From assembly GCF_001485535.1 (NCBI RefSeq), contig NZ_BCMZ01000001.1, positions 806,001 through 870,000 of the forward strand: DNA of 64,000 nt, read 5' to 3'. Below, piece by piece: positions 49,533 through 53,079 of the stretch (the stretch's first letter is position 1; each line of letters opens with the position of its first letter). The translations under genes and the position numbers were made by a program. The notes beneath the pieces are model-generated. The model was given only the letters and a program-made list of their open reading frames with translations. It ran no database searches and was not told where the DNA came from. This DNA is from Halobacterium sp. CBA1132. GTDB taxonomy: Archaea; Halobacteriota; Halobacteria; Halobacteriales; Halobacteriaceae.

Positions 49533-49876
49533 TCCTCGACGATGTCCGTGTTCCAACTAGCGTTCGTGACGTCGTCGTAGGCGACGTCGTACTCGACGCG
49601 GACGACGGTCGTCTCGTTGGGGCCGAGCGTGATTTCTCGGACGCGCGTGTACGCCTTGTCGTCGAACTCCGTGTTGACGTACAGCGTTCCGGACGCCTCC
49701 CGCCCGGAGGGGTTGCTGACGGTGACGACGACCACGACGTTGCCGTTCTCGCCTTCCTCGTACGTCGAGTCAGTGACTGTCAGATCGGCCTCGCCGTCGC
49801 CGCTTCGCAGGCAGCCCGCCAGCGGGAGGGCGACGCTCGCGGCGGCCGTCCGTCGGAGCAGCGTCCGCCGGTTCAT
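49529..49876 (-). CDS. Tat-exported lipoprotein with a FxLYD-like domain
   Basis: A 115-residue exported lipoprotein. The signal starts MNRRTLLRRTAAASVALPLAGC, read as a twin-arginine motif (RRTLLRR) and a lipobox LAGC with the modified Cys at about residue 22. The mature domain (about 85 residues) has beta-sandwich-like strands (NVVVVVTVSNPSGREASGTLYV and TTVVRVEYDV), resembling FxLYD-type domains. It is encoded antisense-wise between the helicase and Bax1 and shares the CTAG stop tetranucleotide with the helicase. Its function is unknown. Confidence 0.83.
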   Translation of the reverse strand: MNRRTLLRRTAAASVALPLAGCLRSGDGEADLTVTDSTYEEGENGNVVVVVTVSNPSGREASGTLYVNTEFDDKAYTRVREITLGPNETTVVRVEYDVAYDDVTNASWNTDIVED

Positions 49877-49946
49877 ACGTCCCGGTCCGGGCGTACCGGC
49901 AAGAATCTTCTGTATCCTTTTGTGCGCGCGCCGCCAATCTCGTCGC

Positions 49947-51455
49947 GTGCTGACGAAAGACCTCCTGCGAGTGTCCCGCGCCGGCGGCGGCTACCAGCCG
50001 CAGTTCGCGGGAACGGAAGACGAGGCGCTCGCGGCGCGCGTGCTCGGTACGTTCCAAGGGCACGTCGGCGAGGAGCGCGCGTCGCTGCGCGAGTCGCTGA
50101 CCGGCGTCGAGCAGGAGGCGCGCGACTTCAAACTCGTTCGGGGGTTCGCGCACCTTGTCGAGCGCGACGCCGCCTTCGAGGTCGAGTCCGAAGTCGACCC
50201 GCGGTCGGCGCGCCGCGCGGCGTTCGCGGCAGCCGAGGACGTGGTCGTCGTCGACGCCGACGAGCGTGAGCGCGCGCTCTCAGAGGCTGCCGACGGCTTC
50301 CCCGGCGACGTGACGCCCAACGAACTCGCGGCCTCGCTGTACGCCGACCGCGAGACTCGCGAGGTGCTCACCGAGGTCGCCTCGCGCTGGACGCCCGCGT
50401 CGCTGGTCGCCCAGTACAACCTCTCGCTGGCGATGACCGCGCTGTTCGACGCGACCGAACTGCGGGTGCGCTCCTCGGACCCGCGGCGCCTCGTCTCCGC
50501 CGTGAAGCGCCTCGGCTTGCTGTACGAGGTGATTCCCGTCGAGGGCGGCGAGGGCCGCGAGGTCGTGCTCACGGGGCCGGACGCGCTGTTCCAGCGTTCG
50601 CGGCGGTACGGCACGCGGTTCGCGCGCGTCCTCCGGACGGTCGCGAAGGGCGACGACTGGCGAGTCGAAGCGACCATCGACGACCGCGGCACGGAGCGCC
50701 TGCTGGAACTCTCTGCGGGCGACCTCGACGTGCCGGACGCTGACCCTGTCACCGACGTGGAGTACGACAGCGGCGTCGAACGGGAGTTCGCCGCGCGCTT
50801 CCAGTCCCTGGACTTGGACTGGGACCTCGTCCGCGAACCCGACGTGCTGGCGGCCGGCGACCGCCTGATGGTCCCGGACTTCGCGTTCGACTACGCGTTC
50901 GGCGACGAGCGCGTCTACTTCGAGATTATGGGGTTCTGGACGCCCGAGTACGTCGAGAAGAAGCTCGCCCAACTGGACGCCACCGACGAGACGCTCCTCG
51001 TGGCCGTCGATTCGAGCCTCGGCGTCGGCGAGGACATCGAGTCCCGCGACCACCGCGTCGTCGAGTACACGGGCTCCGTGCGCGTGAAAGACGTCGTGGA
51101 CGCGCTCCGCGACCTCGAAGCCGACCTCGTCGCCGAGTCTGCGGCCGACCTCCCGGACGAACTCGTGCCTGACGCGGACGCGATAACGCTCGAAGCGCTC
51201 GCCGCGTCCCGCGGCGTCAGCGAGGACGCCATCGAGGACGTTGCGTTCCCCGAGCACGAACTCGTGGGTCGGACGCTCGTCCGCCCGGGCGTGTTGGACG
51301 ACGTGGCCGCGGAGCTGGCGGCAGGTATGTCGCGGGCGGACGCCGAGGCAGTTGCCGAAGAACACGGAATCGACGACGCGAGCGCGCTGTTCTCCCGGCT
51401 CGGCTACCGCGTCGAGTGGGAGGGGTTGAGCGGCGGGACGCTGCGCGAGAAATAA
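49947..51455 (+). CDS. bax1: Bax1 (DUF790) nuclease, XPB partner
   Basis: A 502-residue protein of the archaeal DUF790 family. Characterised members (Bax1) bind XPB and act as the structure-specific nuclease in excision repair. The PD-(D/E)XK core shows MVPDFAFDYAF, then VYFEIMGFWTPEYVEKK. The N-terminal VLTKDLLRVSRAGGGYQPQF and the region TPNELAASLYADRE are typical. A GTG start at 49947 is used. It is separated from the XPB gene only by a short lipoprotein gene on the other strand. Confidence 0.92.
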   Translation: MLTKDLLRVSRAGGGYQPQFAGTEDEALAARVLGTFQGHVGEERASLRESLTGVEQEARDFKLVRGFAHLVERDAAFEVESEVDPRSARRAAFAAAEDVVVVDADERERALSEAADGFPGDVTPNELAASLYADRETREVLTEVASRWTPASLVAQYNLSLAMTALFDATELRVRSSDPRRLVSAVKRLGLLYEVIPVEGGEGREVVLTGPDALFQRSRRYGTRFARVLRTVAKGDDWRVEATIDDRGTERLLELSAGDLDVPDADPVTDVEYDSGVEREFAARFQSLDLDWDLVREPDVLAAGDRLMVPDFAFDYAFGDERVYFEIMGFWTPEYVEKKLAQLDATDETLLVAVDSSLGVGEDIESRDHRVVEYTGSVRVKDVVDALRDLEADLVAESAADLPDELVPDADAITLEALAASRGVSEDAIEDVAFPEHELVGRTLVRPGVLDDVAAELAAGMSRADAEAVAEEHGIDDASALFSRLGYRVEWEGLSGGTLREK

Positions 51456-51480
51456 GCCATGGATGTTATCTCCACAAACA

Positions 51481-51496
51481 TAACCTATATGGGTTA
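51481..51496 (+). promoter_or_regulatory. Palindrome overlapping the promoter of the SatD-like gene
   Basis: TAACC-TATATG-GGTTA is an inverted repeat that contains the TATA-like core (CTATATGG). It lies 21-36 bases before the ATG at 51517. The product of that gene carries a helix-turn-helix, so self-repression at this site is a natural hypothesis. Confidence 0.55.
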
Positions 51497-51516
51497 TTAC
51501 CGAGTACATCGTGTTG

Positions 51517-52143
51517 ATGACGACCCGGTACGTCCTTCTCGGCGACGTTGTCTCCTCTCGGGAGATAAACGACCGCGCGGAGTTCGGAGCGCGGCTCCGC
51601 GAGGCCTGCCGGACGGTAGCCGAACAGTACGAGAATGCGTTCGACGCACCGCTCAAACCGCTCAAGGGCATCGATGAGATCGGAGGGGTTCTCAACACCG
51701 TAGAACCGCTGTACGACATCCTCGACACGCTCCGCGCTGCGCTCCACCCGCACGAACTCAGAGTCGCCGTCGCTAAGGGTGTCGTCGACGTCGGTCTCGA
51801 CTCGGGAGACGTCTCACAGATGGACGGGCCCGCGTTCCACCGGGCGGACGAGCTCCTCTCGGAACTCGAACGTGGGCCACTCCGGTTCGCGTTCGATTTC
51901 CAGACGGAGTCGCTCGACACGGCAGTTGCCGACGAGGTGAATCTCCTGTTCGCGTCCAAGCGCCGCTGGACGGACCGGGAGCGCGAAGTCGTCGAGAGCT
52001 ATCTAGAGACAGGTTCGCAAGCTGAGACAGCCGATGCACTCGGTATCTCGCAGGCGGCGGTCTCTCAGACCCTTTCACGCGCATCGTGGCCGACCATTCG
52101 TGAAATTGAAACCAGATTACGAACCACCCTGCAGACAGTATGA
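51517..52143 (+). CDS. SatD-like protein with C-terminal helix-turn-helix
   Basis: A 208-residue protein of the SatD group. The opening MTTRYVLLGDVVSSREINDR is the strongly conserved family motif, followed by FDAPLKPLKGIDEIGG and a nucleotidyl-cyclase-like (GGDEF/cyclase-fold) alternation ELRVAVAKGVVDVGLD. The C-terminus is a helix-turn-helix (QAETADALGISQAAVSQTLSRA). It probably regulates its own promoter. It overlaps the next gene by four bases (ATGA), so the two are translationally coupled. SatD proteins have no established biochemical activity. Confidence 0.85.
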   Translation: MTTRYVLLGDVVSSREINDRAEFGARLREACRTVAEQYENAFDAPLKPLKGIDEIGGVLNTVEPLYDILDTLRAALHPHELRVAVAKGVVDVGLDSGDVSQMDGPAFHRADELLSELERGPLRFAFDFQTESLDTAVADEVNLLFASKRRWTDREREVVESYLETGSQAETADALGISQAAVSQTLSRASWPTIREIETRLRTTLQTV

Positions 52144-52511
52144 GCGCTCTCCCGTTCGTTCCGACCGCGGAACGACTTGTCGTCGTGGTCGCCAGCTACG
52201 CATTCCTGTTAGCGACGAGCGGGTTCGTCGTCACACGAGCACTCCGTACCGTCCCGTCGGACGACGACGTGCCGACCGGCCGCGAGCGCGACGTCGGGGT
52301 TCTCGTCGGGAAGTGTGAGAACGTACTAACGCTCACGTTCGTCCTCGCTGGCGCGTACACCGCACTCGCTGTCGTGTTCGCCGCGAAGGGAATTGTTCGG
52401 AAGGACGACATCGAGAAGAACAGCCTGTTCTACCTGGCCGGAACGCTGGTCAACCTCACGTACTCCGTGCTCGTCGGACTCGTGGCTGCAATCCTCATCG
52501 GCGTTCTCTGA
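52140..52511 (+). CDS. Small membrane protein paired with SatD (DUF3307 C-terminal-like)
   Basis: A 123-residue membrane protein with three or four hydrophobic helices (AERLVVVVASYAFLLATSGFVVT read as the first). The second half (CENVLTLTFVLAGAYTALAVV, then FAAKGIVRKDDIEKNSLFYLAGTLVNLTYSVLVGL) resembles the final membrane part of bacterial DUF3307 proteins that also neighbour SatD genes; the comparison is from memory of the family and is the main evidence. It is translationally coupled to satD. Its function is unknown. Confidence 0.72.
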   Translation: MSALPFVPTAERLVVVVASYAFLLATSGFVVTRALRTVPSDDDVPTGRERDVGVLVGKCENVLTLTFVLAGAYTALAVVFAAKGIVRKDDIEKNSLFYLAGTLVNLTYSVLVGLVAAILIGVL

Positions 52512-52512
52512 A

Positions 52513-53079
52513 CTACAGGTCCCGGCGGTTCCCCTTCGGCACCATCGACTTGAGGTCGCCGTACGTGTAGAGGCCGACGCCGATGGGTTCGACGCCGCCC
52601 GCGAGCTCGTGGGCGACGACGAGGTAGCCCCAGTCGCCGTCCCACGCTATCTCCTGCTCCTCGCCGGCGACGAAGCGCTTCGCCTCGTCCTCGTCGAGCA
52701 CGAGGACGTTCTGCTCGGCGTCGCGGCCGAACCGCTGGACGGCGTCGGTCGTGGGCTTCCAGTGCTCCTGGCGCGTGCGCAGGATTTTCAGGCCGAGCGC
52801 CTCGACGGGCACCGGCTCCCCGGGGTCGTAGGGGAGCGCCCAGACCTTCCCCTTGCCCTTCTCCCAGAACGTGTACTCGTCGAAGGTGTCCTCGGGGACG
52901 GCGAACCGGTCGACCCACCAGTCCACGACGGCCCCGCGGGTCGGCCGACCTTTGACCGTCCGGTCGGCGTCCGTCTCGGGGAGGCGGTCGAACTGGCCGC
53001 TCCTGTTCCGGCGGAAGTAGTCGACACCGCTGTCACCACCGCCGTCGCTCTCGCTGGAACCGCGGTCGTCGTCGGTCAC
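52513..53079 (-). CDS. PUA-like C-terminal partner of a NOP2/Sun methyltransferase
   Basis: A 188-residue protein with an acidic start and a globular part (WWVDRFAVPEDTFDEYTFWEKGKGKVWALP, shown in shorter motifs as WWVDRFAVPEDTF and TFWEKGKGKVWALP). GLKILRTRQEHWKPTTDAVQ and VGLYTYGDLKSMVPKGNRRDL follow. This resembles the C-terminal RNA-binding domain fused to RsmF-type methyltransferases. Its GTG start overlaps the methyltransferase stop by four bases (GTGA), so the two are translationally coupled and may act as one enzyme in two chains. Confidence 0.8.
   Translation of the reverse strand: MTDDDRGSSESDGGGDSGVDYFRRNRSGQFDRLPETDADRTVKGRPTRGAVVDWWVDRFAVPEDTFDEYTFWEKGKGKVWALPYDPGEPVPVEALGLKILRTRQEHWKPTTDAVQRFGRDAEQNVLVLDEDEAKRFVAGEEQEIAWDGDWGYLVVAHELAGGVEPIGVGLYTYGDLKSMVPKGNRRDL

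Follow-up and report, generated by a model that had tools for sequence, protein, structure and literature searches.

The SatD family protein encoded in the window (the whole stretch of DNA analysed here, 64,000 nucleotides) is more than an HTH regulator: in its structural model, a cyclase-type palm domain makes up most of the protein. Its gene forms a cassette with that of a short membrane protein, and palindromes lie in the promoter. The family membership of SatD, its pairing with the membrane protein, the identity of that protein, the predicted fold and the conservation of the palindromes are directly supported. We give an even chance to the proposal that this locus forms a self-contained switch that depends on a nucleotide, represses its own expression and acts on, or responds to, an effector or sensor in the membrane. 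The SatD family is widespread, and the cyclase-type fold, the true partner module and the promoter palindromes lead to a testable mechanism for it, here in an archaeal group that is accessible to genetics.

A two-gene cassette with tandem palindromes

The window SatD matched PF16264 with an E-value of 3.4e-14 and 53.4 bits, above the Pfam cut-off of 29, and is thus a genuine member of the family. A preliminary description of this DNA had proposed a SatD with a C-terminal HTH, a four-base overlap with a membrane gene and a compact two-gene system that controls itself. The profile check, the Sigma70_r4-type HTH and the shared ATGA bear out the two-gene system, and tandem palindromes that exceed shuffled sequences are signs of self-control (Table 1). 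The inverted repeat described over the TATA box is also present, with limits of 51480-51497 instead of 51481-51496. Absent from that description are the empty slot in congeners, a second palindrome and the cyclase-type fold predicted for SatD. In most relatives, the satD and membrane genes overlap by 4 to 11 nt.

Table 1 Features of the SatD cassette and its flanks (positions in the window)
Feature	Position	Strand	Remarks
DUF790 gene	49617-51455		Flank of the cassette
Putative distal palindromic operator, ATAAGC-CATGGA-TGTTAT	51452-51469	.	Centre -56; overlaps the DUF790 stop codon
Putative proximal palindromic operator, ATAACC-TATATG-GGTTAT	51480-51497	.	Centre -28, over the TATA box; position conserved in relatives
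TATA-box-like TATAT, inside the proximal palindrome	51486-51490	+	27-31 nt before the ATG
satD ORF, SatD family protein, 208 aa	51517 (ATG) to 52143 (TGA)	+	PF16264 match; relatives
Predicted cyclase/palm-fold domain of SatD, residues 1-150	51517-51966	+	AF2, Foldseek, VIA, conservation
SatD D10	51544-51546	+	End of the first strand
SatD D53	51673-51675	+	Hairpin
SatD E54	51676-51678	+	Hairpin
C-terminal HTH of SatD, Sigma70_r4-like, residues 152-189	51970-52083	+	E 8.6e-7; helices in the AF2 model
ATGA start/stop overlap of satD and the membrane gene, 4 nt	52140-52143	+	Sequence
Membrane-protein ORF, 123 aa; SatD-associated membrane module alone, no DUF3307 domain	52140-52511	+	Profiles
Membrane-protein residues 26-120, aligning to the C-terminus of DUF3307-containing proteins	52215-52499	+	
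DUF7122 gene	52513-53079		Flank of the cassette

Two convergent genes, for DUF790 and DUF7122, enclose both cassette genes and the palindromes in the window. The gap between these flanking genes measures 5-24 bp by alignment and is empty in seven congeners, 247 bp in one further congener and 1.06 kb in three carriers. In the cassette-free congeners DUF790 and DUF7122 almost adjoin, leaving a clean empty site. Since nine loci from several families keep the slot, the cassette would be either old in this place and often lost, or moving by homologous exchange.

The proximal palindrome consists of perfect 6-bp arms flanking TATAT, with its centre 28 bp upstream of the ATG, and the distal palindrome lies exactly 28 bp further upstream. 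When up to two mismatches were allowed, the motif was found three times in the 64-kb window, against 0.14 expected, and one of the three matches is the distal site. In the 3.0-Mb genome of the organism itself, the exact proximal site and the tandem pattern each occur once, and within one mismatch there is only one other, single site. Across 28 dereplicated haloarchaeal loci of the divergent SatD type (see below), the tandem-palindrome score averaged 8.36 versus 6.25 for shuffles, the largest of 500 shuffle means being 6.75, and 11 of the 28 loci scored at least 10 of 12 (0.07 expected). Upstream palindromes are enriched at bacterial loci as well, of which 28% reach a score of 8 versus 4%, and some carry a TTGACA-like sequence between the arms.

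The arms depend on the clade (ATAACC, ACAACC and others; ACCGAAC around -26.5 at bacterial-type loci), while symmetry and position persist, and the sequence of the SatD recognition helix varies together with that of the operator across clades. Roughly one third of the haloarchaeal loci, or more, have weak palindromes or another spacing. A single strict spacing for all loci was rejected, as the spacing is variable and some clades have other arms.

The distance from TATAT to the ATG would fit a leaderless haloarchaeal transcript. Because the proximal palindrome covers the TATA box, a dimeric HTH protein bound there would repress its own operon.

Predicted fold and conserved residues of SatD

The AlphaFold2 model of the window SatD, built with 56 relatives, had a pLDDT of 95.7 and a pTM of 0.90. 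The best Foldseek matches of this model in the PDB were class III cyclases, namely a bacterial light-regulated adenylyl cyclase (E 3.7e-5) and Rv1900c (E 6.4e-5), followed by GTP cyclohydrolase III, GGDEF proteins and Cmr2/Cas10. VIA gave a Z-score of 12.3 over 137 residues (rmsd 3.2 Å), and the 50 VIA matches listed were class III cyclases, GTP cyclohydrolase III or Cmr2/Cas10. Residues 1-150 are therefore predicted to adopt the class III nucleotidyl cyclase/GGDEF fold, so that the HTH regulator of the preliminary description retains its HTH as the smaller part of the protein. By sequence, a profile HHalign of SatD with four cyclase-type (Pycsar-type) sequences gave a probability of 2%, which is not significant, with a consistent register. 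In a sequence search for solved relatives of SatD, the significant matches were HTH proteins only, and diguanylate cyclases appeared weakly (E 0.24-0.7). The fold shared by the model does not in itself show activity of SatD.

D10 and D53 occupy what we take to be the metal-aspartate places of class III cyclase/GGDEF enzymes, a placement based on motif and secondary structure instead of a superposition of coordinates. Both aspartates are kept in every SatD that has a module (137/137; 157 loci), and both are lost in three SatDs, one haloarchaeal (L090, genome G319) and two from Bacilli (L217, G887; L226, G875). The association of the aspartates with the module gave a Fisher P of 0.002, which is only indicative because the rows share descent. 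In the same three SatDs the loss of the aspartates coincides with the lack of an intact module, an apparent joint decay.

The divergent haloarchaeal SatDs, including that of the window, keep K50, G51, D53 and E54 nearly invariant, and in the window's clade the GDE hairpin is one residue longer than in bacterial SatDs. Position 111, an R in bacterial SatDs, is occupied by D, T, S, A or N in the divergent SatDs of haloarchaea (D in the window). The likely counterpart of the class III Asn/Arg helix is MDGPAFHRADELL in the window SatD versus GADGPAYHxARxAI in bacteria; it contains no Asn, and Arg only in bacterial-type members. Because the bacterial R111 is replaced, catalysis in the window's clade appears doubtful and may have been lost.

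A cyclase-type fold in front of an HTH also occurs in PucR/CdaR-type regulators, two of which, Rv2242 (Foldseek E 1.2e-4) and BAD_0249 (E 2.9e-4), are among the structural matches of the SatD model. SatD might be a membrane-anchored one-component regulator, in which the palm is a dead scaffold and an envelope-sensing module retains or releases SatD as an anti-sigma factor does its sigma factor, with no nucleotide involved. The Sigma70_r4-like HTH, the tight pairing of SatD with the module and the loss of R111 in the window's clade would suit such a regulator. A dead scaffold, however, would need neither D10 nor D53, and every module-paired SatD in two domains of life keeps both; unlike the PucR/CdaR-type proteins, SatD has retained these aspartates and has a membrane module as its partner. 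Moreover, no wider SatD regulon was seen, because the tandem operator occurs at its own operon only. We consider this nucleotide-free regulator possible but rather unlikely.

The membrane module and its pairing with SatD

The membrane protein of the window has three hydrophobic segments. When its coding sequence (52140-52508) was translated and compared with Pfam, no match was obtained even at E 10, hence none to PF11750, and membership in DUF3307 was rejected. At the family level, however, the short partners align with the long, DUF3307-containing ones by HHalign (probability 98.8%, E 1.4e-16, columns 167-266 of 270), and an HMM of the short partners matches the long ones in their C-terminal part only (E 1e-13 to 1e-10). 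DUF3307 spans about residues 15-116 of the long relatives, and the window protein aligns behind it. The shared part is a module of ~100 residues, which stands after DUF3307 in the longer proteins, contains every invariant residue of the long partner family and has G53, G57, E60, K83, R87, L99 and G101 conserved.

Plasmids of Alphaproteobacteria carry SatD with the module alone, and in the Gammaproteobacteria Chromatocurvus and Haliea the module stands behind a different membrane segment lacking PF11750. Because of these two arrangements, the module is, as judged from comparative sequence, the constant partner of SatD, and DUF3307 one optional front end. The preliminary description had likened the window protein to the last part of DUF3307 and had named DUF3307 membrane proteins as the neighbours of bacterial SatD. 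The likeness holds for the C-terminus of DUF3307-containing proteins, outside the Pfam domain, and the neighbour that regularly follows SatD is the module. DUF3307 also occurs without SatD, as in a 134-aa protein of phage RsoM2USA, and was present in 2 of 14 control genomes, none of which had SatD (0/14). The long-form partner was modelled with confidence (pLDDT 93.2), and structure searches with this model retrieved no usable relative (Foldseek E 0.76 at best, VIA Z 6.2). One module gene (L243, G840:C81:12000-15500) has neither an aligned DUF3307 match nor SatD nearby.

Of 391 haloarchaeal genomes, 46 contain PF16264, representing 23 of 86 genera, and a profile built from the short membrane proteins and run against the complete genomes found the module in 45 of the 391. 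Both genes were present in 44, SatD alone in two (partnerless SatDs L060 and L090) and the module alone in one (Fisher P 1e-54), so that the pair co-occurs in 44 of the 47 positive genomes. The single orphan module (L195, G398:C1:1498500-1505500) has its conserved K83 and R87 changed. Among 296 genomes of Bacilli, SatD was found in 26, the module in 25 and both in 21 (P 1e-23); a pairing common to bacteria and archaea, as the preliminary description had supposed, is thus upheld. The four module-only Bacilli comprise G717, with a divergent SatD-like gene directly upstream, G732 and G762, with a cyclase-like gene directly before the module, and G840, with neither kind of gene upstream.

A scan of genomes from 84,980 species yielded more than 500 SatD relatives; 80 loci were retained. 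Most belong to Clostridia and their relatives, and the others to Eisenbacteria, Fusobacteria, Gammaproteobacteria, a Thermoplasmatales MAG and haloarchaea. The module follows SatD in 70 of 83 scan loci, the two genes usually overlapping by 4 or 8 nt. The haloarchaeal SatDs (49 loci) fall into two types: 10 are bacterial-type (GDIRGSR, TTGDEFQ) and are followed by a ~250-aa protein with DUF3307, and 39, including the window, are divergent (LKG[IV]DE), with a short partner protein where a partner is present. A search among phages and viruses found neither SatD nor the module, and ffh, the neighbour in the streptococcal sat operon, was not seen next to SatD in the Bacilli loci with 1.5-kb flanks.

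Several loci deviate from the usual arrangement. In L081, a TnpB-like gene lies between satD and the partner gene. A 488-aa frame (L097:3362-4825) adds ~280 residues, perhaps a TPR-like extension, to the usual SatD and is a possible fusion. Intact SatDs with a split or truncated DUF3307 partner occur in L123/L207 (Thomasclavelia), L173, L133, L135 and L136; these partners may be pseudogenes, phase variation or assembly errors.

NCBI already names an adjoining pair on a haloarchaeal plasmid 'SatD family protein' and 'DUF3307 domain-containing protein', and the sat genes of S. mutans have been associated with acid tolerance, as cited in PMC11323703. The locus could thus be an ordinary annotated SatD-DUF3307-type pair with a housekeeping function in acid or envelope stress and nothing beyond its annotation. 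We regard this as improbable: only 12% of haloarchaea carry SatD, which argues against housekeeping, and our literature search found no description of the SatD cyclase fold, the membrane module or the operators.

Proposed switch and comparison with known systems

In the switch that we propose, the palm domain predicted for residues 1-150 would carry D10 and D53 at the metal-binding places. A SatD dimer would bind the palindromes at -28 and -56 through its C-terminal HTH, as comparative sequence suggests, and the proximal site over the TATA box would make SatD a repressor of its own operon. The palm domain would bind a nucleotide in a metal-dependent manner, and many bacterial members possibly also make one. 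The co-translated membrane module, as effector or sensor, would then read the nucleotide state or receive it by relay, with DUF3307 in front of it elsewhere as an optional extra. DNA binding, nucleotide binding and the direction of signalling are the steps that we infer. For the window's clade, nucleotide sensing without turnover would be at least as likely as synthesis, given the replaced R111 and the extension of the GDE hairpin by one residue. More broadly, and more tentatively, SatD and the module may represent an undescribed nucleotide-signalling system across bacteria and archaea, in which SatD is an enzyme or sensor as well as a self-repressor and the nucleotide restrains or triggers a membrane effector.

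In Streptococcus pyogenes, satD is reported as the single essential yet accessory gene, being essential in all transposon studies yet present in 178 of 249 genomes (PMC11323703). This would be expected if SatD restrained a harmful neighbour, as in a guarded-effector or toxin-antitoxin-like arrangement, where the module is harmful once released and SatD keeps it inactive by a signal, by contact or by repression. Such a plan would be comparable to Panoptes, in which a membrane effector is under constant restraint by a palm-domain enzyme (PMC12657218). It would also suit an overlapping two-gene cassette with its own putative operators that either occupies one exact slot of the chromosome or is missing from it, and haloarchaea in which the module without SatD is rare and degenerate (G398) and SatD without an intact module is commoner. 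Against it, the module matches no known PADLOC effector, and the broken partners could equally be assembly frameshifts. We judge a guarded effector, too, possible but rather unlikely.

For the nucleotide-dependent switch, two side loci from Bacilli are of interest. In G762 (L245, G762:C1:593000-597500) and G732 (L246, G732:C1:1154000-1158000), a gene for DUF3307 plus the module stands in a run with a PycC-type cyclase (PADLOC PycC E 6e-81 and 1e-79), directly after the gene for a smaller cyclase-like protein (E 3e-8). These loci are possibly a Pycsar-like system with a DUF3307 membrane effector; the PycC association is confined to these two related genomes. Neither SatD nor the module gave a PycC or effector match in PADLOC-DB 2023, a negative that is weak for Panoptes because this release predates it. 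By analogy, the essentiality of satD and the PycC neighbourhood would agree with a palm-domain protein that is linked to a partner in the membrane, as in Panoptes and in Pycsar (PMC11224242).

Within the SatD family (PF16264), the window protein shares the profile, the domain order and the position directly before a membrane gene, whereas its branch has a KG[IV]DE hairpin instead of GDEFQ, a replaced R111 and a partner reduced to the module. The window membrane protein resembles the C-terminal ~100 residues of SatD-linked DUF3307 proteins (PF11750) but lacks the DUF3307 domain, which in turn is also found without SatD. With class III cyclases and GGDEF proteins SatD has in common the predicted fold and two aspartates, one closing the first strand and one within the hairpin; unlike class III cyclases, it has a C-terminal HTH, and the catalytic Asn/Arg pair is not evident. 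SatD differs from Panoptes (OptS/OptE) and Pycsar (PycC/PycTM) in its DNA-binding domain and putative operators, and the module is without sequence match to known effectors. The likeness lies in the plan of two genes, a palm-type nucleotide enzyme and a membrane effector, and if our proposal is true, systems with a palm-domain protein wired to a membrane partner would extend beyond Pycsar and Panoptes.
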